From contig NC_135242.1 in NCBI RefSeq assembly GCF_947623445.1, forward strand, positions 5,518,001 to 5,582,000: a stretch of 64,000 bases of DNA, written 5' to 3'. Position numbers and translations under genes: made by a program. The notes below the pieces were generated by a model. The model worked only from the letters and a program-made list of their open reading frames with translations, ran no database searches and was not told the origin of the DNA. The stretch is from Clavelina lepadiformis (lineage: Eukaryota > Chordata > Ascidiacea > Aplousobranchia > Clavelinidae). Every line of letters begins with the position of its first letter. Position 1 is the stretch's first letter. Below, one piece after another: positions 3,340-35,973 of the stretch.

Positions 3340-3990
3340 CAGGATCTATTTTAGACCATGGTAGGTTATGATAAGCTTTATCGTCAGACTAAAGAAAGTT
3401 TTTGCACAACTTAAATTCTGCGATCATTGCTCAAACCCCGACTAACGAGTTAGCTTAGCCTTTGTGCAAGTTCTGAAATTACAACATTTTATTTTTTTTT
3501 ATAGAGAGTGAATATTTGACCATAAGGTTACACAGACCGTTAGATAACGATTAGGAGAATTGAAATGCAAAAAGTTAATGTTAGTTATTTAGGGCTCAAT
3601 TCAAGTTAGATTTACTATGCAAGGAAGATTTTGGTAAAGTTAAGTTAATAAAAAGCTTCAAACATGATCTTTTCTGGTCAAATAGTGGCAGCCTTTTTTT
3701 ATATCGCATTGGCCGAATTTAGAACTGTTCACCACAACCACTACACCGAACAGGAGAAAGCGTCGTTAATGCCTTGCCCAAGGGCATTGGTATAATATGA
3801 TAATCTTTATCCTCATACTGAGGAAAGTCTTTACATGACTCAAACCCGGCAATGATTCCTCAGTTCGGGTTTGGTAGTCGTGGTAGCACCACTGTAATTC
3901 AAACATTGCACGTTTCAAGACGTCAGGCCTTTGTCGCTTTCCCGTTCGTTGATAATTTGTGAGCGTACTTTGAGAACGTACGGGTTTTCT
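3340..3990 (-). repeat. Diverged duplicated repeat, possibly SINE-like
   Basis: About 80 bp around 3358-3440 and 3790-3875 align with each other in direct orientation at roughly 70% identity. Both contain GATAAKCTTTATC, then an AAAGTYTTT core and a CAAACCC stretch. On the minus strand the second copy reads like the body of a deuterostome or molluscan SINE: a GGGTTTGAGTC box, then a CCTTGGGCAAGGCATTAAC motif. No tail or target duplication was found, so the SINE label is tentative. Confidence 0.3.
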
Positions 3991-4076
3991 CACTATTTTA
4001 TGTACAATAATAAGTTATGAATTCTTGCGGTACAGACTTATACTAGTGCAGGGATGCTTTTTGGTCGTGTTTGTCC

Positions 4077-4085
4077 GGTTTATAT
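4077..4085. repeat. Left 9 bp target-site duplication (GGTTTATAT)
   Basis: GGTTTATAT here is repeated exactly at 10449-10457. The two copies bracket an element whose ends are inverted repeats. A 9 bp duplication is the size typical of Mutator-like transposons. Confidence 0.7.
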
Positions 4086-4123
4086 GAGGCGGGGAAGTGA
4101 TCCATTTATGACTCGCAAGCCAG

Positions 4124-4765
4124 GCGTGAAATTCAGAAGCCTGGGTCGAGATTACAGAAGTCATGGCTCGTATAAAATGAAGCCTGGGTTGAGATTACAC
4201 AGATCATGGCTCGTATAAAATGAAGCCTGGGTCGAGATTACAGAGGTCATGGGTTCTGTGGATTGAAGCCTGGGTCGAGATTGGAAGGGTCATGGCTCGT
4301 ATAAAATGAAGCCTGGGTCGAGATTACAGCAGACATGGCTCGTATAAAATGAAGCCTGGGTCGAGATTACAGAGGTCATGGGTTCTGTAGATTGAAGCCT
4401 GGGTCGAGATTGGAAGGGTCATGGCTCGTATAAAATGAAGCCTGGGTCGAGATTGTAAGGGTCATGGCTCGTATAAATTGAAGCCTGGGTCGAGATTACA
4501 GAGGTCATGGGTTCTGTAGATTGAAGCCTGAGTCTAGATTGGAAGGGTCATGGCTCGTATGAATCGAAGCCTGGGTCGAGATTGGAAAGGTCATGGCTCG
4601 TATATAATGAAGCCTGGGTCGATATTACAGAGTTCATGGGTTCTGTAGCTTGAAGCCTGGTTCGTGATTGGAAGGGTCATGGCTCATATAAAATGAAGCC
4701 TGGGTCGACATTGCAGAAGTCATTGGTTAGGCTATGTAGCCTACGACTGGAAAGGTCACAGCTTT
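4124..4765 (+). repeat. Left tandem array of ~43 bp units (inverted terminal repeat of the foldback element)
   Basis: About 14 copies of a ~43 bp unit are present, each containing GAAGCCTGGGTCGAGATT. Two half-types tend to alternate: one has CATGGCTCGTATAAAATGA, the other CATGGGTTCTGTAGATTGA. Divergence rises towards the inner edge (4650-4765). The reverse complement of the same unit forms the right array. Confidence 0.9.
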
Positions 4766-5471
4766 TTTTACTAAAGGTTTGATCGACAATAAAGAGGTCA
4801 TGCCTAAAAGGCTGGTTTGAAATGAAATAGATCATGTTTTTTAATTAAATCCTGTATCACTAAGTTTGCGTTGTGCAGTAAATTATCATACATTACCTAT
4901 ATTACGGAAATTAAGCCCCACAAATTACACACGAAGTTAAATTGAGTGCCACAGGAATGTTGAGTTATGCAAAACCACAAATACATTATGCAAGTACATG
5001 ATAAAATTATTGTTGAACTACTTATTTGTGGTGTTTCTGATAAAATGCCTGCTACCAATTACTTTTTTTCTCCTCACATGTTAATTACACCATTGTCTTA
5101 GTTGTACTTTACAGGTATATAGTGATTTGCTTAGTAAGCTATTGAAGAACATAAAAATGGAGTGGTTTGACCATACATTATTACTGCATGTTAGGATTTT
5201 TGATGCAGACCATTTCACGTTGCTCCAAGGATTGTGAAATCATTCACGTGACCCACGTTCAATTGGGAAGTCTCCTGACTGCATGAGTTAAACACATTTA
5301 CAGATGAATGTCTTTGTAGTGAGGAAATTGTTTAAAAGTACTTTCTTCAACACCTTCCTTTCCGCTGATATGCTTCAATTCAATAAATCATTTACAGTGA
5401 ACGCTTGCCTGACTTATATTTGTACCACAAACAGGTTAACAACTGGAAAGAATTTTATTACAGTACATGAA

Positions 5472-8400
5472 TTAAATTGTGCAATGTTTGCATAGGAACT
5501 GTTCGTTTTCTGCCGGTTCAGCGGAGCAGGATTCGTGGATCCAGCGGCAGCATTGATCACATGCATACTGAAAGAGAAATAGGCAAAACAGTTTGATATT
5601 GCTGTAATAGAAGCCTTAATGTTATGACATTACATTGAACAACTTCAGGCGAAAACTATTTACCCATGCAGTGCTCCGTGATGTTGTTTTCGAACAATGA
5701 ACACAAAATTCGTCAAGGTTCTCTTCGTCTAAAAACAAAACATGAAGTGAAATAATATTATTTTTCATTGAATTAATGGGACCCCAAATAAATTAAGCAT
5801 GGACTTACCACAATGTCTAAGCAGCATATTTCCAATTGCAATGCGTATTGCATTACAATCTGTGGGAGCCTCTCTAAATTCTTGAAATTCATTTTTCATG
5901 TATTGCTGGGCAGCCTACATAAACATAACGTAGAAGTAGCTTTCAGTGGATAGGCAATTTCAAGTTTATAATATTTTGTCACATATAATCCACAAAAATG
6001 TATAATCTCCCACATATGTCCAGAGTCTAAGTCTTCTCTGAATTGTAAGGTGCACATTAGCACTCAACTAGTAAAAGCCATGCTCTTCTTTTACAATTAT
6101 TATGCAATTATTAACTACCAAGTGGCTGCATTGTTAGAGCTCTGTGCTACCAACAGTGCTGCACATGTCCGATACCTACTATAATGAAAATTCCTTTGTT
6201 AACTCGCCTTGTTTTATGTTAATTATTTCTCACTGCAATAACTTATAGTCAAATGTAACAAGATATGAGTTAGGGGGTTTATCTTGTATGATTGAACACT
6301 TACCATGATAGAGAGGGGCCCACAACTGTGGGTATCTTGTTGTATATTGTGGCTGTGTATTACCACTTTTGCATCTTCATAAGATGCATTCAGTTTATGC
6401 ACTTTCATGTTGTAAAACTTCTGGAAGGATCTATTTAGATTTGAAATATATCAGTACAGTATAAATACTTGTAAAGTACCGAACCCGAAATGTAAGCTCA
6501 TGTGAGCCCGAGTGATAGGCGTGATAATATTACAAACATTGAAATTTATTTGTGAAAGCACAAATGTCCTTATTGACTCACTGTTGGCTACATTAAAATC
6601 CTATATGTCCACGGTATACCACCTGCATATTTCTTAATAGTAATAAAACTTCTTTATCAATCACTGGCGAATTTCATGCACCGTTCCATGACAGATTACA
6701 AGCCAATGTTTTAATCACAGCTTCAGCTTACGTTAAATTAGTTGTAATGGTTGGAGCGATGGTATTTTCCCTCCCAAGTGGATCATATATGAAAACCTCA
6801 GCGTTAGCAACATCAATTGCCTGCAAATAATGTAATGGTAGCTGCATGGTGATAGTCGTCAGGCAGATAGCTAGTGTTACAAATAATCTTAATACATTGA
6901 ATTTGAATCTCACCAAAAACACCCAGTGTGCTCCAGTATTTATGATAGTTATAACTGGTTTCATGAAACGTCCAGTTACCTAAAAACAAACTTCATAAAC
7001 AACATGTCAAAGTAAAAAGGAGCAAATCATGGCTTTAACATACCCAGTCACTATTTCTGCGGGTAAATCTTCTTTTGTGAAACCATAAAGTACCATACTG
7101 TGAGGAAACAGTATTCCAATCCTCATTCTTTGAAAGAAGTTTTCAAACCACATGTGAATTCAAACGTGAAATACACACAATTTCAAAGTAAACCAATAAC
7201 AACTGTATGGCGGTAGAATACCTTATATATGTTTTACAGTACAGCACATTAACTACACTAATTCAAATAAAACATGTCAGTTGTGCTGCTAAAATCAAGT
7301 TCAAAGTATATTGTTTTTGCTAAATTTTACTTTATTTGTAAGCTGTGAACAGGAATATTTCCTAATGTGAAGTATAAACAGTTATATATATAAATGAAAA
7401 TACCAAAGCATACCTCAATACATAGGGCTTCTAGTGCCGCATCAACGACCTAAAGATAAAGAGATATACCTACACTTAGCCTGTTTACATACAACTTATT
7501 CCATAAAGAAAAATTATTAGATCAGCAAAATCCACATAAACAAGTAAAGGGGCATGCGCTTGTAAGCTGGCTTCCTGAAGCTGCAGGCATTTCTGACAGG
7601 AATTATCAGATATTGAATTCAATCTTCTCAACTCATTCAGATAAAATTGTTGTAAAAAGACAGTTTCAGCAATCTGGGAATATTGAACTGCCAATAAATG
7701 TTGACATTCATAGCCCGGATTCATGATTGATAAATGTTTTATGAGATACATACACTCTTCATTAGTGCAAACAGATGCGCTCTGCAAAACATTCTTCTTA
7801 ACATGTATTGGAGCCAAAGGTCCCTTGCTAGATATTGCAACCATAAATATTCCATTAACAGCATCAATTGTCACACATGGCAGTATACTTTGAAGAACGC
7901 CATGTTTCTTTTCCCCATGTCTACGTAAGGCTATCGTGCTTGAAAAACATTGGCTGCAAATTTTACACATAAAACCTTTTCTGTGAACTTCCTGGTTACA
8001 AATTCTATCTGTAAAAAGACACCATGATCATTAATATTTAAGTTAAAGTACAGAAAAATATAACGTCTTTTCAATTGTGTAAGTTTTGTGCGGTGTTTGG
8101 TGAAATAAATTTTCTCTGTCTCTCTATAAACTTGTGTGAGAATTTAATTCATGTTGTAACATACTATATCTGAAGATGCTGATAATTTCAGTATGCATGC
8201 ATTCTGCATAATTTACTGGCTTCGTAGTGCTTCACAACTAATGCTTTAACCAAAACTTAAAATATGTTTATTTACTTTTTCGGCCTGACTTTGCAAAGCA
8301 GTCGCTAAATATTTATCAGATGACCTTAAGCAGAAAATAGCTGCCCACCCTTGACCCAGCTATTACTATAATCTATCTGTTCAGCAGTTACAAACTGAAA

Positions 8401-9772
8401 AGTTATGTTTATAATACAACATAATTAGCCCAAAACATTTATATACCTGTTGATGTAGATGGCAGTTGTATGTCACTGGACGATTTTATTGATCCACATT
8501 CCCCTGGCATAAAAATAGCTCTTACAGCATGACCACATAAAAACTATCAGTACTGACCAGGCAGCTATATATACTGCACAAGGTATAAGTGCAGTAAAAT
8601 AGAAAAATATCAGCATTGGTTATATTGACATATTACAATCATTTCCAGAGTCAGAATTACAGTACATCCATTAAAACTGAGCAGTATTTGTTAGACCAGA
8701 TAATGAAATTTAAAAATGACTAAATGCAAAAAGCTACCAGGTCATAATTAGTATTCATAAATCTTCATAAACAAAAATATGTTTATACATAGACTCGATA
8801 CTAAGTGAGTGCAAAGCAATTAACTTACCATTTGTTGTAACGAGGTGGTGTTTTAGAGGCCTACTCCGACCAAACACATGAAGACAAAAAGGGCAATGAA
8901 AATGACTTCGTCGTGCCTCAGTTTCACTTTTTCTGTTCAGGCATTCTTGCTTGCGGCAAGGAAGAGAAAAACCTTAAAAAATACAAACATAACATTTTAT
9001 AATCTAACAATGCCTAACTATACATTATCAAGATAATTTGAAAATTAGTAATACTTGCACACTTACCCTTTCTACCTTTTACTTCAAATTTCACGGCATA
9101 AAATACAACTTTTTCCTGAAAAGCTTTCTATTTTTTCAAAAATTTCATCTTTTCGGCCCCAAAACACCGAAGAGAAATTCTCTTTTGACTCCATCTATTT
9201 AAAATCGGATTGTTTAATAGTTTTGTATTTTATTATAAATATTTGTTTATATTAAAATTTTGATCAGTATATAAAAAGCATTCATCATTCGTACAAGAAA
9301 GGCTGATTCCGTAAATCAGTCAATTTTTCAGTATGGCCTATAACTACTAATAAAGTAGCTAGCCTATCACCCAAGTCCCAAATAGTACCCGGCTACCAGG
9401 TTACGGTAGTCAAGGAAAACATTATGTCAGTATGCGACTTTGGGACCACATACCAGTATGTACCGGTATCCTACTATAAGCTACAAACTATAATATTCGT
9501 TTCAGATTGCCTAATAATAAATTTCGCCTCATACAGGCCTAGCCTAACTTTCAATGCAATCAAAACCCATGGCTTAAAATATTTCAATACAGTAGTGAAA
9601 TTTCAATATTCAATGCCTACACACTGACACAGTAATTTCTTTAACAATAATCAGCGTCAGCAGTCTGCCAGTCCTAAAAAAAACAGCAAAAGAGCTCGAC
9701 TAACCCTCCTGCCTTCTGATTCAACATTTTTAACTTCAGACTCCAGGTCTCAATTCTATTCGAATTCACCAT
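5472..9772 (-). CDS. Multi-exon C2H2 zinc finger / Ulp1-type cysteine protease / PHD finger gene inside the foldback element
   Basis: Minus-strand exons with consensus splice sites can be followed through the element. Exon 8829-8972 encodes a C2H2 finger (HCPFCLHVFGRSRPLKHHL), 8447-8503 is a linker, and the exon from 8008 to about 7500 holds a second C2H2 finger (MCKICSQCF...RRHGEKKH). A 36 bp exon sits near 7414-7449 and another near 7062-7114. The next two (about 6916-6975 and 6731-6821) give GAHWVF and FIYDPLG. About 6300-6410 gives DTHSCGPLS. Then come 5809-5915, 5661-5729 and 5472-5571. The ordered His, Asp and Cys match the catalytic triad of Ulp1/C48 SUMO proteases. The last two exons form a C4HC3 PHD finger (FCVHCSK, YACDQCCRWIHESC, FLCKHC), ending at TAA 5472-5474. 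A possible first exon starts at ATG 9772, but its phase does not join cleanly. The phases around 7.0-7.5 kb and 6.4-6.7 kb are also unresolved. The gene is probably element cargo; its substrate is unknown. Confidence 0.65.
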
Positions 9773-9774
9773 TT

Positions 9775-10270
9775 TCTTATATCACCCAGGCTTCATTTTA
9801 CAGCACCCATTACCTCTGTAATATCGACTCAGGCTTCAATTTATACGAGCCATGACCCTTCCAATCTCGACCCAGGCTTCAATTTATACGAACCATGACT
9901 GCTGTAATCTTGACCAAGGCTTCAATTTATACGAACCATGACCCTTCCAATCTCGACCCAGGCTTCATTTTATACGAGCCATGACCCTTCCAAACTCGAC
10001 CCAGGCTTCAATCTACAGAACCCATGACCTCTATAATCTCGACCCAGGCTTCATTTTATACGAGCCATGACCCTTCCAAACTCGACCCAGGCTTCAATCT
10101 ACAGAACCCATGACCTCTGTAATCTCGACCCAGGCTTCATTTTATACGAGCCATGACCCTTCCAAACTCGACCCAGGCTTCAATCTATAGAACCCATGAC
10201 CTCTGTAATCTCGACCCAGGCTTCAATTTATACGAGCCATGACTTCTGTAATCTCGACCCAGGCTTCATT
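9775..10270 (-). repeat. Right tandem array of ~43 bp units (inverted relative to the left array)
   Basis: About 12 copies of the ~43 bp unit lie in reverse orientation, each with AATCTCGACCCAGGCTTCA. Both half-types of the left array (cat of ATACGAGCCATGAC and of CAGAACCCATGAC) recur in alternation. Between this array and the right end (10271-10448) is a non-tandem segment whose last ~40 bp match the left end. Confidence 0.9.
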
Positions 10271-10448
10271 TGTGACGCCTGTCTTTGCATTGTGGGTTGC
10301 AATAGTGGCCTGTAGAAGATGTGACCTGTAAGTTGTGGGTTGTATTGGAAGTGGGTTGGCTCCTGTGGAACGTGACCTTAGAATAGTGGCGTCTTTTCAA
10401 ATTTTCATGACCTGGGTTCGAAGTCATTAAATAATCACTTCCCCTATT

Positions 10449-10457
10449 GGTTTATAT
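10449..10457. repeat. Right 9 bp target-site duplication (GGTTTATAT)
   Basis: This is an exact copy of 4077-4085, directly flanking the right end of the foldback element. Confidence 0.7.
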
Positions 10458-12620
10458 TCCAAGAAATGTGTGTGAGTTTCCCGCGAAAACAAAAACTTCT
10501 TAGGTTTTAGTTCATACAATTTAAAGATAACAAAATTTAAATTACAAGTAGTCTATTATTTCTTATAAACCTAAGAAAACAAAAATAGATTTCTGCATAA
10601 TCCATATCAGAGTGGAATCGAATAATTAGTAAATAGTTACCAACAGTTTGGATTTGTTAAATGTTGAAAGTTTTATTGCTAAGAGCAATATGAAATACTT
10701 ACAACCCTGCATTGAGATGTGTACAGGAAAGAGTAAACCAAAAACTTGAGAGTAAATAGCCTAACAGTTTTGCTTCAACTTATGTGTTTGTGGTTGGGTG
10801 TGGTTTCTTTCAGCGGCAAAAATTTGCAGGCACGACATATTTTTCTTTTCAATTTAAAGCTAACTAAAGTTGTATTGTACCTTAATCTCTTTGTCTCCTA
10901 AATTACTTCAAACCTTGGTTTAGCACATTTTATTAACTATAGCCTACCGTGTATCAATAATGTTCTGTATGGAAAGCTTGTATTTTTAGATTTACGACGA
11001 AAAAATTAGGACCCATGTTTACCCCACACCAGTATTAAACCTATAATTATTTTCCGCCACAACTAATTCCTATTTTAATAAAGGGAGGATTTCACTAAAA
11101 GCCTGAAACACTGAAGTGAAGAAAATAGGCCTACTGGTTGCGAAACACTGTTTTCAATTTCAGGCTTTTAGCGTGTCCTTAAATGCCAGTTTGGAATGCA
11201 AGTTTTTAGTGCACCGGTATGCGTGAGTGTGCACCAGATGTCCCTGTTTTGGAATTAATTAGCTTACAAAGTAGCTTTTTTGAGGCACTTTGTGCACGAG
11301 ATAGGCCCTAGTTATGTTGTACACAACGCTTTTTTCCAAATGGTCTTACAAGGAGCCGATTCTAAGGCCTCTGGCTTCCACCTGCTTGTGCCACTGTCAA
11401 GTTATAAACCTACCGTTCAACTGTCAAGTGTTGAAACTGAGGGAAGTTCACCGCACTTGCAATGTTTGTATGCATGCTTCTTGTCACATTTTGTGCAAGG
11501 ATTTAATGAATTTATGTCAGAAAGGCTGAAGCTGATATTTACGCCAATAACATAACCATATTTGCTCCATTGCCACGCCGAAAATCTTTGACGTTGAAAT
11601 TGGCAAGTTTGTTAAGTGCGTGGAGTATGAAAATTAATTGCACATATTATGGCTGTTATTTCATTTTGATTTCTCTTCCAAAAACAGCAAACTTTCCAAT
11701 GTGGTCCGGCGTATCATACAAATTTTATACAAATTGTATGTATATCTGTTGGTTATCATTAGTCTATTTTACCAGAAAAAATTGCACTTACAAAGCTAGC
11801 CTATGCTTGGTTTTTCACAAGGTTTTCGTAAACTTAACTGTTAAAACACGGTAACCTAACCCCTGACCAGATTGCATTTTTTGCTTTTTTCGACAAAATC
11901 TTGGGTGCGCAAAAGATCTACGATTGCACTTTAAGTCCACACTCACAGTCTGCGAAGTGATGGTTTTGATGCTTTAGCAAGCTTCTGTCTGCTAAAAAAC
12001 TTGCTATAAATCATGTAAAAGTGCATAAAAACTGCGTCCACAATTGATTAAATGCACTAACTTCAGATAAAGGCACAATTACGTAATCATCAATCATTAA
12101 CGTACCTAAAGTGTGCAATTGAGTATAATTATAATTGCAATTGAGCGTGCTGTTACCTAATTTTGCAGACCAGACCCCTGACAACGTGACTGCAGCTTGA
12201 ATTGAAAGTATCGCAGTTTTTGACGAGAAATCCTGCTTGCAAAGACAAATTTTGACATAATGACATGCACTGAATCCTCATTCCTTTGTATATTTACTAT
12301 AAATTGGTGTTCAAGCAACAGTCTTTTCTTTTTTTATTATAAATCGGCGTGAAGATAAAGTTTGTTGTGCATGTTGATAAAGCTTATCTGTGCAAGTGCC
12401 AGACTTTCCACTAGACGGTACTGCAGAGTATGGCCGTTTTCAGCATGATCTTGTGTGCTGCAAACAATCGAAAATGACAACCGCAGGTGACCCAAAACGG
12501 CTGAAACCACTGTATTAGATATGTGCCTGGCCTATTGAAATAATCTTATCTGTCATACTTACAAGTTGCAAGCACTCAATTTGTTGTTTGACATCTAAGG
12601 TTAAGTTGTTGGCTTTTAGA
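10458..12620. other. Gene-free stretch upstream of the kelch gene
   Basis: Short ORFs here (11280-11555, 11570-11854) show no recognisable domain or splice structure. I see no repeats with defined ends. The region presumably includes the promoter of the kelch gene. A splice-acceptor-like CTTTTAG sits directly before the kelch ATG, so a 5' untranslated exon or a trans-splice site is possible. Confidence 0.4.
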
Positions 12621-13910
12621 ATGGGTAATGAATCATCACAATACGGTAAAAAATTAAAGAACAATATAATAGTAAAGTGGAATAAAGATAAGGAAAAATG
12701 TCCATTTCCTCCAAGGGAAGGTCAAGCTACTGCTGTTATTGGATCTAAATTGTACGTATTTGGAGGTGTCGTCTTTTTAAAAAATGAGAATGGTGGTGGA
12801 GAAGATCTTGAATCGAATGACCTGCTTGTTTATGATGTTCTGACAAGAAAATGGTTCAAAGAACCATGTTATGGAACATGGCCAAGTCCACGTTCTGGGG
12901 CTACAATGACATCTGTTGGGAAATCCTTATATTTGTTTGGCGGACTGAGTCAGTTTTCTGGTTGGATGAATGACTTTTATCGATATGACACGGAGTGTAA
13001 GACCTGGAAATGTATAGATGCAAGTGGTGCTCCAAGTCCTAGAGACAAAGTAATGTGTGCGTCAGTTGGTGAGAAAATTTACATCCATGGTGGGTTCGGT
13101 CCTGCTCAATACCTTAATGTTGATCCCGATGATGTTCTACCAATCGACGATGATGATGGTGAATATGAAGATATGGATGAATTACACGAAGTTAGAAACT
13201 GCCAAGAAGCAGCAAACTTTACATGGTCTGATGAACTGCACGTCTTTTGCACAAGCATGGGAAAATGGTCACATATCAAGCCAAAAGGTCCAAAAATACC
13301 AAGTGCTCGTGCTGCCCATAGTCTCACAGCTGTAAGCAGCAAGGCAGGCAACTGGTTGTATGTGTTTGGAGGCCGAGATATTGACTCAAGGCAAAATGAT
13401 TTGTGGAGATTTAATATAAAAGATTGTGTATGGGACCAATGCCAAGGTCTAGGTTGCCAACCACAACCGCGGTCATTTCATGCTGCAGTGGCAGTAAAAG
13501 GACGTTTAGTTGTACATGGCGGTCGTGCCGTGAATAATCAACATTTTGATGATTTCAACATATTTGATATAGACACTAAGGAATGGCTGCAGCCAGAGAT
13601 GGTTGTTGGTGGTCCTGCTATGGAAGAAAGCATAGAAACTCCTTGTGCAATGGGACTACATACATTATGTGCAGTGGATAACTACCTTATTCTGTTTGGA
13701 GGAAGCTCAGAACTAGATCCTGCAACTGGCACATGTACCAAATACAATAATGACATATTTCGAATAAATATTAATGACATTTTAGAGGGTGGTGCCATAG
13801 CAGAAAATGATTCTTCAGAAAATGATGCAAAACAAACAAATGTTTCACATATGCCTGGCATTTTGAATCTGAAAGCTAAAGTGAAATCAAGTGACCAGAA
13901 TTCAGAATAA
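12621..13910 (+). CDS. Kelch-repeat protein, KLHDC1/2/3-like, single exon
   Basis: A 429-codon uninterrupted frame starts at the first true ATG (12621, Met-Gly-Asn-Glu). The frame is open slightly further upstream but only from TTG. At least five kelch blades are visible, each with a hydrophobic-Gly-Gly core: KLYVFGG, SLYLFGG, KIYIHGG, WLYVFGG, RLVVHGG and YLILFGG, followed by Trp and a Pro-Arg-x-x-His/Gly turn (SPRSGA, SARAAH, QPRSFH). Kelch propellers of the KLHDC1/2/3 type act as substrate-binding adaptors of CUL2-RING ubiquitin ligases. Here the spacing and the SARAAH/VFGGRDIDSRQNDL blade resemble that group, but no BC-box was confirmed at the acidic C-terminus. Blade 3 contains an unusual acidic insert (DDDDGEYEDMDE). 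Lack of introns in an intron-rich region may mean retroposition. The sequence TTTTAG lies just before the ATG. Confidence 0.85.
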   Translation: MGNESSQYGKKLKNNIIVKWNKDKEKCPFPPREGQATAVIGSKLYVFGGVVFLKNENGGGEDLESNDLLVYDVLTRKWFKEPCYGTWPSPRSGATMTSVGKSLYLFGGLSQFSGWMNDFYRYDTECKTWKCIDASGAPSPRDKVMCASVGEKIYIHGGFGPAQYLNVDPDDVLPIDDDDGEYEDMDELHEVRNCQEAANFTWSDELHVFCTSMGKWSHIKPKGPKIPSARAAHSLTAVSSKAGNWLYVFGGRDIDSRQNDLWRFNIKDCVWDQCQGLGCQPQPRSFHAAVAVKGRLVVHGGRAVNNQHFDDFNIFDIDTKEWLQPEMVVGGPAMEESIETPCAMGLHTLCAVDNYLILFGGSSELDPATGTCTKYNNDIFRININDILEGGAIAENDSSENDAKQTNVSHMPGILNLKAKVKSSDQNSE

Positions 13911-20861: not shown

Positions 20862-23800
20862 ATGGATATGTTTTGGTTAAGTTTTTGGATTCTGCTTGTG
20901 ATATGCATAGTGATGTATATCTATACAAGAAAGGTAGCTGAAATCCCAGAGAGCAGTGCCTTTAAAATGTTTCAGAAGCAGTACCTCGTTGTGTATTTGC
21001 TTGCAATGGGTGAGAAATTAGTCGTATATATGTATATTTATTAATTTATATATACACTCACACCAAATGTGCATTAGTTCCTTTCCAGATACTCATGTTT
21101 TTAGTTTAATCTCGCCTGTCCAAACTTGCACTGGTTCAGTTCCTGGGCAGTTCCTTTCAATTTCTTGGCTTTGTCACTTGCTGATGTTGCATTAAAGTGT
21201 TTTTTTCTGAAATTTTGTTTTCTGTTGTAAATGCATTTATCATGTTTACATTAACGATTCTTACTGTTTTACATATAGGAGGTGACTGGCTGCAAGGGCC
21301 GTATGTGTATGCTTTATATCAGCATTACGGCATGACAACCCATCAGATCGATGTTTTGTTCGTAGCTGGATTTGGTTCCAGCATGATCTTTGGCACATTT
21401 GTAGGTTCAAGCGCTGATAAAATGTAAGTTGTTTGTTGCGCAGTTGCGCTACTTGTATTACCAATTATCATAAAATTTTAATTCCCTATAATCGTAAAAA
21501 TAAGTGATACAAAGTATAAGGTTGGCAACTAGAAGCACTACAGTAACATCTCGATTAAGTTTGCAAAAATTTATCACAAAATCTAGATTCAACTTTTTGA
21601 ATTTTTCATTTGACATCATGTGAATAGAGAGAAAAAACTTGTGTAGTGTTCGAATGAAACCTTGATATTTTTCGAAATATAACAACTGCAAAAATATTAA
21701 TTTGTATCATATTGTATTTACAGTACAAAGCTTTAGCGCTGCCTAAATTTCTGACAAGAAGACAAGCCAATCAGTTACCAATAATTCTCCAAACTAGTTC
21801 TTAGCAAAACTTAAATGTAGAATGAAATAGCACCCCTCGCCAAGACAAGTGTCTGTGACGTCACGAAGCAAACAAATAAAACGATTTCCAAAAAACTGTA
21901 ATTGCTAAGTTTGCACCTACCACTACCAGCTAAGTTCACACTAACTGCTCAGATTCAAGTTGCAAACTTAACTGGGATATTACTCTACTCACCCGAGTAA
22001 CATTAGCGATGACTGACCTCGGAAGCATTATCCCACTCAGCTGCCACTAGCAACCAAGCTTGAAGACCTATCAAAGGCTTAACTCAATGCATACTTAATT
22101 GGCATTTTGGTTTGGTTCGCAAATTCGGTGCACTCTCACATACTAGTCACACTCAGGTAGTTAATCGAAAACAAGGAAACATGCTAACAGAGGGCTTGTA
22201 TTCATCGTCCTAAACAAAGTGGATTTATATAGACAATAAAGGATGGTGTATTGCAAATATATACAGTGGGACCTCGTTAATCCGGACCCCGATGAACCGG
22301 AATCCCCGCTATCCGACACAAAACTGCCGGGAACGGATTTCTTCCTATGCATTTTACCCCTTTAATCCGGAAACCCCGCTGTCCGACTCCGACACTAAAG
22401 TTTCGGAACAAATGTGCTAAATCAATAGCAATAAAATCCGATAAACCGGATTATTAACAGTTAAGCGAAAATGATTCACGACTGTCCTAATACACTATGT
22501 TAGTTTGTTGACGAAACAATAGCCGATTATCTACGCATAATAACGTTGCGGTCTTTATTGATTCAAAAGTACAGTATTGTACAGTATTTTAGAAACGAAA
22601 AAATAAATTGTTCATCAACAGTAACAAACAACGCTTCCGCGGTCGCAAAAAAATACGTACATTACATCGGTTGAGTGCGGCAATCTATTGAAGACATACT
22701 GCTGCAACTCAATCGTGCTATCAGCTTTTGATATCGCATTGCGCAAAGATTGGAAACAGGTCAAAGAAAGTTCAAGACAGTTGGTCCCACCGGAATGCTT
22801 CGCCACGCAAGAGCGGTTGTCAAACCGATTTGCGACCGAATGTTCGTCACTTGGAGAGCATTCGTCTTTAATACGGTGGTTCTGGGGTTCGACACTGGGT
22901 CGGATCATACAATAAATATAATTTTATTTTAGTTGCTGTCCAGCCAGAAACTCGGCACTTAGAATTGGAGTAAGGTGCATACGTCGTTTTGAACACGGTG
23001 CTGCATTTGCAAGATTGATTGATTTTTTACTTTCCGATTATCCGGATACCCCGCTAAACCGACATTTTTTGACGAAACGAAGTGGTCCGGATTAACGAGG
23101 TCTCACTGTAGTATCACAAAAAGCATTGAAGTTAAATTAATTACACTGGCCAACAAAAAAAACATTTTTTTTGAGTGCCAAAGATATTTTGATGGTTTCT
23201 GGGTAATTTTGGGCTGCTGAGTCCGAAAATAACATTCGTTTCTTTGAATTGGCTCTAGTTTTTGAGATATCGATGTTTTTTATTTTTGACAAGAGAAAAA
23301 TCGTTAACTTTAGTATCTGCCAATTGTGAACACAAGCATCAGTAAAATGCATATTGGAAATGTCTCTTTGGCAGTATGCATTACTTATTTTGGACCAGAT
23401 ACTCCACTATGTCTATTTGTTATTGTAGCATCCCATTACTTCAGAAACAAGGCATTGAAAACACTCCATTTTCGGCATCATTCTGATAAGCTACAGTTTC
23501 TTTGTATTGTTCACCACATGTACAGTGTAGAGTACTCCCTTCAGTTATCACATCATATCAATATCTCATTTTATAGCTATATTGTTGTAGACTAAAGATG
23601 TTGTAATCAGAGTTTAATAGTTCTGTAGCCAGAGAAAGGAATACCACGAGTCAAGTTCAAGCTATTGCTCACATAACTAAGTTTGGAAAACGTGGAGTTT
23701 TTTTGTAATTCAAGTGAGAATTGAGTTCATTAGTGGAAGTTTGACAATATGCTTAGGCCTTGTCACTGGGAGGATGCATTTTCCTGTGACTGTGAGTGAG

Positions 23801-26800: not shown

Positions 26801-29800
26801 AAACAAGAGAAGACACAGTTGTTAGAATGGAAGATGTAGAGGAAGAGAGAAGAGATGTAACTGAAGAAAGTGTAAATGAACAGAAGAGAGAAAAGAGAAC
26901 AATTAAATTGGAAATAAACAAAAAGCAAGTTGGAAAGTACTTTGCAGTGTTTTGGGAGAAGCCAAAAACATATTATTGGGGAAAACTTCTGAAGGTCTTC
27001 AGAGACGAGGTTGATGGAAAAATTGAGCAAGCTGAATTTAAGTTTTGGGACAAGAAATCAACTTCAGAAGATGCAGTGTATTGGGACTGGCAAACAAAGG
27101 AAGACATAGATATAGTCACCGTTGAAAATTGTTTTTGGGGTCCTTCAACCGCAGTGTTAACTTCTGTCGGACGTGCAAAATCATATTTTGGTTTTGCCGA
27201 AGAAGAGGAAGTGAAAGAAAAATTTGTGTTCCTAAGCAAATATGGACTTCATAATGCATAAACTTTTTTGTTTGTTTGAACAAGATGTTACAGTTTCATC
27301 CTCATCTGTATATATTGCTATTTCTTCTGCTTTGTGTTGCTTTTAATAAACAAAATTTGCTGTCGAAATTGATTGTTTTTTTTTACCCCGAGCATGGTTT
27401 TTATTGCCCCAAACACTGGGGAAAAAAAAGCAACACAAAATATTCGATAAAAATAAAAAGAATAAACATAATGCTCCAATTTTTTGGATACATCAATGGA
27501 ATATTAATATTGATCAATAGAGGGTAAAACTTGACTTTTTGGCCCATTTTTTAGCGAGAAAATCAAAAGTTTGTCAATTTTGCATTTTTTTGCCCCACTT
27601 GACTATATCTCAAAAACTAGAGCCAATTCAGAAAAACTAATGCCATTTTTGGATTCAGCGACATAAAAATACCCTAAAACCGTTGAAACTTTCTTGGCAC
27701 CAAAATGTGTGTTGACCAGTGTTATTAAATGGTTTATAGGTTAGGCTGCCGATATTAATATTTTTTGTTTCACATCCAGTGAAAAATCTTCTACATTGTT
27801 GTTTGAATGTTTAATAGGATGTTGTCTCTGTATAAATTTAGTCTGGTGGTAAGTCTTTTTTCTGTATAGAATAAGGCTGAAATAAAAGGCTTTTTTTAGC
27901 CTTCTATGAAACCTATTCTGTTGGTTAGAATTAGCTAGTAAGCACAAATGTCTCCTAATTCATTTCAAATGGCTTTTCTTTATACAAATCAATTCATTTT
28001 TAAAATGTTTGGGGTTGCTAAATAAAATTCTTTTTCGTTTTGTCATAATAATTGGAAACTCAGAAATAACTGTAATTGTGAATGGAGATCATTACTCAAA
28101 AGCAAAAGTTGGGTTGTTAGGTTTTTAAATTATACTTGAGTGATAAATTGCAAACAATTAGCGCTCACGGTAGCTCTATATCACCAACCTATAATAGCAG
28201 CATAATACAACAGTTAAGCATTTTGTGGAGCTTGTAATTTCCAAGTTATATATAAGTTTTTTCCTATTTATGTCCATATTTCTAGGGGTCGCCGGTTTAC
28301 CTGCATTGTGTATGCTGTCCTTTATTCATTGGCATGTATCACAAAGGTTGGAGACTTTCGTATAATGAAATTATAAAGTTAATGTTTTGTTAAATTTCAT
28401 CATTGTACAAGTTATTTAAAGTGCATGGTTTTGCATAAAAAAATTAATCATTCATTCAAATATTAAAAATGCTAAAGGTTTTACTTGCTTTGAATTCATT
28501 ATTTCCTTGCATTGTAATTATCTTTATCTTACTTTTCATCACTTTGCAAATAGCATTTTCCCGTCTTTTGGATATTATTGGTCGGCAGATTCCTGGGTGG
28601 GATAGCTACTTCCATTCTCTTCAGTGCTTTTGAATCCTGGCTTGTGTGTGAATACCACAAGGTATAACCACTGATTTTACAAAATTTCTGTATGACAAGA
28701 TATTTGATAATATAAATCAAGAAATGAGTATGTCCTTTACAGAGGGATTTTGGTCAAGATCTTCTGGGTGAGTTGTTTTCACGAGCAACGCTTGGTAATT
28801 CCCTGGTAGCAATTTCAGCAGGCCATTTAGCTCAGGTAGCAATAATAAGAAATTTAAGAGAGCAATAATTGACAAACGAATGTTTTGTATTTATGTATAA
28901 TATTAGTCCTTGTAAATTTGTGCTGCTGGAAGATAGATCTACTGTTTAATTTGTCTCCAAGAGTACAGAGTATTCATCCTACATATTAGCATATATGTAT
29001 TTCATCATGAGAAAGACTGAAATGTAATTAATGTATTATATCTGTTTGTCTTTTGAAAGGTTTTTGCGGACATGTATGGATTTGTTGCACCGTTTGATGT
29101 GTCTATGACTGTGCTAGTGGTGATGGTATTAGCTATAACCCTAATGTGGAAGGAAAACCACGGAGATGCTGAATCCACATTTTCAACAAACTTTAAAAAT
29201 GCACTTACCATTACTTTAAAGGGTACATGCTTACGTGCTTTAAATTATCATAGAATTAAGAAATAGTAAAAAAAGTAAAATGTTTGTATCATGCCACAAA
29301 GTACCGTTTGTTCATGCATCATTCAGACCCTAAGATCATGATGTTGGGTGTAGTGCAATCCTTCTTTGAAGGCTCTATGTATACATTTGTGCTGGAATGG
29401 ACACCAGCTCTTACCCCGCAGTCCAGTGATGTTATATCAAAGCCTACAATTCCTCACGGATTAATTTTTGCTTCATTTATGGTAGGTTTTGAACAATCAG
29501 TATGGGTAAGGAACTTAGTCATACAGCAACAATTGTGCATTGCAGGAAGGCATGACATTTGTATTAATTGCCTGGATATGCGAGCGGTTATGAAGGAATG
29601 GCTCTTTCCGTTTAGCAAACACAATGCTGTTAAGCGCCATGTAATTATTCTATTTCAGGTTGCTGTAATGATTGGATCGTCAGTGTTTAAACTTGCAAGT
29701 CGTTTTTTCTCAATCGAATCTTTTATGAGGTTTGTGCTGTTGACATCAGCATCATCCCTTGCCATACCTGTATTCTTTCCTGAAGTATGTCTTTTTGGTT

Positions 29801-35611: not shown

Positions 35612-35973
35612 GGTGGTCGTACGATTCAACCCCGGACGATTCAACCTGCGGACGATTCAACCCAGGACCATTCAACCTAGGGCGATTTAACCCACGGACG
35701 ATTCAACCCACGGACGATTCAATCCGGTGCCTGATAACGAACTACGTAGACGGTTTTGTAAATGGGTTAAATCGCCCGCGGGTTGAATCGTCTGTGGTTT
35801 GAATCGTCCGTGGGTTGAATCGTCCGCGGGTTGAATCGTCCGGGGTTGAATCGTCCGTTGGTTGAATCGTCCGTGGGTTGGATCGTCCGTGGGTTGAATG
35901 GTCCTGGGTTGAATCGTCCGCAGGTTGAATCGTCCGGGGTTGAATCGTCCGTGGGTTGAATCGTCCGACCACC
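35612..35973. mobile_element. 362 bp miniature foldback element of inverted ~18 bp tandem repeats
   Basis: The ends GGTGGTCGTACGATTCAACC and GGTTGAATCGTCCGACCACC are inverted repeats. Each end leads into tandem copies of an ~18 bp unit (GGACGATTCAACCCAC). About six units lie on the left (35621-35730) and about eleven in reverse on the right (35764-35966), separated by a ~35 bp unique spacer. The flanks share a near-duplicate, CTGGTAGTTAGC (left, ~35593) and CTGGTGGTTAGC (right, 35974), which may be the target duplication. Frames through it are artefacts of the repeat. Confidence 0.8.

Follow-up and report, generated by a model that had tools for sequence, protein, structure and literature searches.

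A DNA transposon of 6,364 bp, with one multi-exon minus-strand gene inside, occupies positions 4086-10449 of a 64,000-nucleotide stretch of the Clavelina lepadiformis genome (GCF_947623445.1, NC_135242.1, positions 5,518,001 to 5,582,000; hereafter the window, C3:5518001-5582000 in our contig numbering). The gene encodes C2H2 zinc fingers at one end and a Ulp1-type protease followed by a PHD finger at the other. We conclude that both probably belong, as its opposite ends, to a gene of transposase type that is the element's own. This gene would be of the Zisupton/KDZ-like (Kyakuja-Dileera-Zisupton) kind and is now internally deleted. The reasons are that a KDZ-associated cysteine cluster lies in the same gene in a longer copy (L044), that the element is flanked by 8-bp duplications, and that Ulp1 and PHD domains have precedents on transposases. 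Since no KDZ core was seen in the copies examined and L044 is damaged where the core would lie, the element was classified as Zisupton/KDZ-like and not as a member; membership is likely, not proven.

Element ends, target duplications and copies

The element termini are GAGGCGGGGAAG and CAATAGGGGAAG, and the inverted arms consist of 43-bp tandem units; over 484 nt they are 86% complementary when aligned in their best register. Own-genome searches covered 209 Mb on 95 contigs. The element DNA gave at least 186 matches, a lower bound because the best 40 of 145 candidates were scored. The terminus pattern, with one mismatch allowed, had 63 matches genome-wide vs. 0 for a reversed-pattern control. 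The copy set comprised 16 sequences, namely the window and 15 loci from the same genome. Exact terminal motifs were present at both ends in 13 of the 16, the pair with the fewest mismatches being kept where several end pairs were possible; L057 and L058 had no pair of ends. A perfect 8-bp target-site duplication (TSD) was found in 12 of the 13 paired copies, and one duplication was common to L051 and L052, giving 11 independent insertions.

The element thereby has the terminal inverted repeats (TIRs) and the 8-bp TSD of a Zisupton/KDZ transposon. A long TIR combined with a TSD of 8-11 bp, the range in Mutator-like elements, is present as well and does not discriminate; TSD length cannot separate Mutator-like from KDZ-like elements here because 8 bp was the only length tested.

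L051 (C1:2421300-2428600) and L052 (C1:4011600-4018900) are the same insertion in inverted orientation, 1.6 Mb apart, bearing CAATCTGC and its reverse complement. The pair represents either a segmental inverted duplication or an effect of assembly. At C1:3.16 and 3.43 Mb, the matches also look alike.

A gene with a KDZ-associated cluster and a Ulp1-PHD end

Mapping the element onto its copies placed about 3.25 kb of extra sequence in L044 between the C2H2 and Ulp1 exons. This stretch contains the part of exon E3 that the window lacks, the exons encoding CxC4 and the one encoding the Ulp1 start (NWLDD). Nine L044 exons (E0-E8) join in phase and encode 671 aa. This protein matched PF18717 (CxC4, "cysteine cluster associated with KDZ transposases") with E=6.1e-9 and 36.3 bits vs. 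a cut-off of 26.9, one exon alone matched it with E=1.2e-6, and NCBIfam gave no match to the 671 aa. The spliced L044 protein contains the KDZ-associated cluster, whereas the window copy, which is internally deleted and presumably non-autonomous, has lost it by deletion. The L044 middle also holds a CYKCG...DGNWKN motif and a CxC...CxH motif, the latter of which we take to be SWIM-like. Exon E11 of L044 encodes the Ulp1 start (LLQGSNWLDDI) and joins the next exon in phase, and on both sides of the stretch deleted in the window the L044 exons keep phase up to the points where it could no longer be traced. The L044 order CxCxH - CxC4 - 'SDTLLNTEF' presumably resembles that preceding a KDZ-like core in HMGXB3-like and cnidarian proteins.

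L044 is the one copy with the whole middle of the gene (14 matches, 13 of 13 candidates scored). From one side, ever shorter parts of it remain in L045, L047 and L046, in that order; from the other side, parts remain in L051/L052 and L048, and smaller pieces occur elsewhere. These copies look like a series of internal deletions, as is usual when an autonomous element decays. The L044 middle protein had 20 matches in the genome, consisting of the window family (with a fragment at C3:24.2 Mb) and a relative on C9 (E=0.007). That relative, L061, was set aside; it is 37% identical over query residues 26-151 with five stops, and five of its frames matched no family at E<=0.02. Viral contigs resembled part of the L044 middle in three pattern stretches, of which two loci were confirmed. 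Both loci have frames of phage-like appearance, with short matches around FGPTNNPW and DINPEEVW, and the resemblance was taken as chance.

The Ulp1-PHD end is encoded in the window by eight consecutive minus-strand exons (7449-5472) with AG/GT borders, phase kept throughout and a TAA end, giving 222 aa. Pfam Peptidase_C48 matched this protein with E=2.2e-11 (44.5 bits, cut-off 20.7), and all three codons of the His-Asp-Cys triad were located; the N-terminal part of the domain is deleted in the window copy. Two Gln sit five and six residues N-terminal of the catalytic Cys. All eight C4HC3 ligands of the PHD finger are present, and its Pfam PHD score lies below the curated cut-off (E=4.5e-4 when scanned alone, 0.0077 within the 222 aa).

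At the other end, one window finger fits the pattern C-x2-C-x12-H-x3-5-H. It lies in the exon starting at 8008, and the motif of exon 8972-8829 is irregular, with adjacent His. All C2H2 matches score below Pfam cut-offs. A third C2H2-like motif occurs in the first exon of L044; relative to L044 and L051, the corresponding window exon has lost 80 bp, and its frame is broken.

An earlier sequence-only reading of this DNA had described C2H2, Ulp1 and PHD exons running in one direction inside one transposon between 8972 and 5472, and a His...Asp...Cys Ulp1 triad; the phase-keeping exons and the C48 profile bear out both claims. Its C-terminal C4HC3 PHD finger holds for the ligands and falls short in the Pfam score, and its two C2H2 fingers reduce to one canonical and one irregular motif.

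PDB was searched with sequences from the L044 copy. A 266-aa query matched a KDM5B domain (E=1.1e-4, the best PHD match) and SENP1 (E=1.2e-3); its first 44 residues have no window counterpart, and the frame of one of its exons was provisional. A 181-aa Ulp1 query in the corrected frame, without the PHD finger, gave nothing at E<=1. Since the SENP1 match was not reproduced with this corrected, shorter query, the Ulp1 assignment rests on Pfam. The earlier frame for the exon before GAHWVFL had been rejected when comparison of the copies placed its acceptor upstream. In the L044 alignments, the Ulp1 motifs (NWLDD in L044, GxHW and the Asp) aligned with SENP1, and two Trp (window residues 191 and 200 of 222) stood opposite Trp of KDM5B. 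In KDM5 PHD fingers these two Trp form the H3K4me3 cage. SENP1 and the KDM5 PHD finger are nevertheless remote in sequence, and SUMO specificity and H3K4me3 binding are putative here.

Three of the 16 sequences (the window, L044 and L048) have all eight Ulp1-PHD exons open; L051/L052 have one stop, L050 has a frameshift, and the other 10 sequences lack some exons. The ratio of nonsynonymous to synonymous substitution rates (dN/dS; Nei-Gojobori, scripted) was 0.27 between the window and L044 (Fisher p=3.6e-5), from 22 changes at 133.5 synonymous sites and 26 changes at 532.5 nonsynonymous sites. It was 0.36 between the window and L051 (p=0.06). The comparison covers few independent lineages, since L048 equals L044 and L051 equals L052 in these exons. 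This purifying selection indicates that Ulp1-PHD mattered to the element. Recurrence of the exons in other copies with a dN/dS of 0.27, together with the exact terminal motifs and 8-bp duplication, argues that the observation is not due to chance. PHD remnants are kept in diverged copies, among them L058, pieces of which are 67-83% identical to the window element, and L063 (approximately 69%). A 5-kb element at C7:16.02 Mb is a diverged copy with PHD remnants, and no core was seen in the 2 kb of it that were read. The Ulp1-PHD module is therefore old in the element family.

A C48 search of the genome gave seven matches at five loci; L002 was profile-scanned, and the other four were viewed as translated frames. 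L002 (G000:C1:24933424-24936795, minus strand) is a distant Ulp1-PHD gene with a 393-aa open frame (C48 E=2.4e-14, PHD 8.4e-6), a PHD finger with two Trp and approximately 20% identity to the window protein. It is compatible with a portable Ulp1-PHD module.

Table 1 Features of the transposon, in window coordinates.
Feature	Position	Strand	Remark
Left TSD GTTTATAT, 8 bp	4078..4085	none	
Left TIR: terminus GAGGCGGGGAAGTGATCC, then 43-bp tandem units	4086..4790	+	inner limit approximate
Exon U8: PHD finger second half (CDQC, HESC, CKHC), stop codon	5472..5567	-	
Exon U7: PHD finger first half (CVHC), first cage-like Trp	5664..5728	-	
Exon U6: end of Ulp1 domain and linker	5809..5914	-	
Exon U5: catalytic Cys motif QQDTHSCG	6304..6430	-	Cys codon 6324-6322
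Exon U4: catalytic Asp motif IYDPLG	6732..6820	-	Asp codon 6784-6782
Exon U3: catalytic His motif TGAHWVFL	6914..6979	-	His codon 6928-6926
Exon U2: Ulp1 segment NEDWNTVSSQYGTLWFHK	7044..7127	-	
Exon U1: Ulp1 helix VVDAALEALCIE	7414..7449	-	
Junction of 3.25-kb deletion, 2-bp CA microhomology	7526..7528	none	vs. L044 ~3960-7207
Exon E3: canonical C2H2 finger CKICSQCFSSTIALRRHGEKKH	7528..8008	-	3' end cut by deletion
Exon E2: small linker	8447..8503	-	acceptor and phase match L044
Exon E1: irregular C2H2-like motif CPFCLHVFGRSRPLKHH	8829..8972	-	
Exon E0 with start codon 9194-9192	9067..9194	-	frame-broken
Right TIR: 43-bp units, terminus ...ATCACTTCCCCTATTG	9784..10449	-	inner limit approximate
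Right TSD GTTTATAT, 8 bp	10450..10457	none	

Elsewhere in the window, a 463-aa open frame with kelch repeats (12519-13910, plus strand; KLHDC2-type, E=1.3e-62) is probably a host gene just outside the element. A hAT remnant lies at 2182-2728 on the minus strand, where neighbouring frames encode a hAT dimerisation region (E=2.4e-9) and a BED zinc finger (E=2.9e-6). At 35618-35967, inverted arrays of 15-16-bp units (arms of 93 nt, 82% complementary, 149 nt apart) look like a small foldback-type element, and inverted arms at 23170-23270 and 27605-27705 (101 nt, 77% complementary, 4.3 kb apart) mark a possible further element.

Transposase core and alternative origins

The profile of the KDZ catalytic domain (PF18758) works on another element of this genome, L062, which it matched with E=1.4e-22. 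Genome-wide it gave 31 matches, 21 of which fall on one short part of the profile (166-210/211) and score alike. L062 (G000:C2:6466000-6475900), with its match in one frame, was judged a different KDZ element; no Ulp1 or PHD was found in five frames scanned, and it has no inverted repeat >20 nt. No transposase family was matched at E<=1 in nine plus-strand frames (>=60 aa) and one minus-strand frame of the window element, or in 10 further L044 frames. No core was seen in the copies examined, and no undamaged copy was seen either.

Several observations weigh against a Zisupton/KDZ-like origin of the gene. PF18758 was detected in none of the copies examined, and against the L044 protein it gave nothing at a limit as loose as E<=10. 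Of the KDZ matches, the closest to one of the 63 termini lies at a distance of 13.4 kb and the next at 23.8 kb; the former (C1:1374413), a relic with seven stops near a partnerless terminus, was rejected as unrelated, the E3 and middle proteins being unmatched there. A whole-genome PF18717 search gave nothing at E<=0.001, with the same outcome in control genomes, so that the CxC4 assignment rests on the spliced L044 protein and one L044 exon. By eye, the phase of L044 could not be followed from E8 to E10, a region where a core could have been lost. The right end of L044 is lost, and L048 has both ends without a TSD. Long TIRs with subterminal repeats and an 8-9-bp TSD also occur in Mutator-like elements, of which 14 mosquito families are described (excerpt of PMC5225508).

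The lost core could instead have been a Mutator-like (MULE) transposase, in a foldback element with the same Ulp1-PHD end. The 8-bp TSD, the TIRs with subterminal repeats and the deletion derivatives all fit animal MULEs (excerpt of PMC5225508), Mutator elements of hydra and lancelet reportedly carry Ulp1, and a published Ulp1/PHD alignment takes in Mutator (excerpt of PMC2836005). We consider this unlikely, as neither L044 protein (671 aa or 332 aa) matched a MULE transposase domain at E<=10, yet the KDZ-named CxC4 scored above its cut-off.

The absence of a core from every copy examined and the presence of other KDZ loci in the same genome would also suit a core-less C2H2-CxC4-Ulp1-PHD helper that resembles plant Kaonashi elements and relies on a KDZ transposase from another locus to mobilise it in trans. 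So would the purifying selection on Ulp1-PHD and its open state in 3 of 16 copies, though the window and L048 are without most of the middle. Such a helper seems improbable to us, given that CxC4 takes its name from KDZ transposases, that the copies resemble the successive internal deletions typical of a decaying autonomous element, and that the phase of L044 could not be followed where a core would lie.

The sequence-only reading had taken the gene for transposon cargo; a captured host gene shielding the element from SUMO-dependent silencing, although a SUMO protease with a histone reader makes a plausible counter-silencing pair and Ulp1-PHD was under selection, is hardly credible when the KDZ-associated CxC4 lies within the same gene, no other transposase appeared in the frames scanned, the Ulp1 and PHD pair is known on transposases of other superfamilies, and no close host donor was seen among the C48 loci (L002 is only approximately 20% identical).

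For the element's own Zisupton/KDZ-like gene, which we prefer, the ancestral order would have been a C2H2 end, SWIM-like and CxC4 clusters, a DDE core whose presence we infer, Ulp1 and PHD. The zinc fingers would bind the 43-bp TIR repeats, and the lost core would move the element by cutting and pasting, joining it to its target with an 8-bp stagger. Ulp1 may strip SUMO or a like modifier from the transposase itself or from nearby chromatin or repair proteins, and the KDM5-like PHD finger would hold the protein on H3K4me3-marked chromatin. Evasion of SUMO-dependent silencing is one possible use of Ulp1-PHD. The window copy itself appears an unlikely agent of such evasion because its Ulp1 N-terminal part is missing and its first exon is frame-broken.

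Relation to known transposons and implications

The element shares with Zisupton/KDZ transposons the TIRs, the 8-bp TSD, the CxC4 cluster and a long multi-exon gene. It differs from them in that no KDZ core was detected in its copies and its gene carries a C-terminal Ulp1 and PHD. An 8-bp TSD is given for Zisupton in an excerpt of PMC12730594, and the P. pacificus Zisupton genes have 18 and 31 exons and encode 1,166 and 1,367 aa (excerpt of PMC9297572). PMC3424704 and PMC7599744 each name Zisupton twice, and their accessible parts give no domain details. In our literature search, no paper was found that links a Zisupton or KDZ transposase with Ulp1; the founding Zisupton/KDZ papers may report such a link.

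The Ginger1 TSD differs in length from the 8 bp seen here. Ginger1-9_HM has the same C-terminal Ulp1 then PHD on its transposase (table in PMC2836005), joined to a different, Gypsy-integrase-like core with an H2C2 finger, and CxC4 goes unmentioned in the accessible part of that paper. Its authors propose a role in transposition for Ulp1 and OTU domains, e.g. via DNA repair factors (excerpt of PMC2836005). Animal Mutator and foldback MULEs such as Muta1 share the long TIRs, subterminal tandem repeats, 8-9-bp TSD and, in hydra and lancelet, Ulp1, and they differ in the MULE domain, which was not detected in the L044 proteins of the window family.

Plant Kaonashi MULEs carry a Ulp1-like domain inside TIRs with no recognisable transposase in the same copy, and they are not known to carry any transposase. 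The window gene differs in that its middle is deleted and points to a transposase. The sequence-only reading had drawn a parallel to Kaonashi. The likeness to ULP1-carrying transposons is real, but since Ulp1 and PHD are known as a C-terminal pair of transposases, Ginger1 and animal Mutator are the closer parallels.

Ulp1-PHD on a transposase is thus already known; its joining to a KDZ-associated protein was not found in the literature searched. We tentatively propose, as a possibility that falls short of the probable, that a Zisupton/KDZ-type lineage fused Ulp1 and an H3K4me3-type PHD finger separately from Ginger1 and Mutator, the pair having been recruited by at least three unrelated transposase superfamilies. 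If true, this would be a convergent solution and would suggest that cut-and-paste transposition generally needs active chromatin to be deSUMOylated locally. For annotation, the window copy illustrates that a deleted transposase can pass for a host gene carried as cargo. That a Ulp1 and PHD end occurs together with a KDZ-associated cluster in one gene suggests that the pair serves transposases as a portable accessory module, and if this module is a local deSUMOylase on H3K4me3 chromatin, the question of why transposases keep ubiquitin-like proteases becomes testable.

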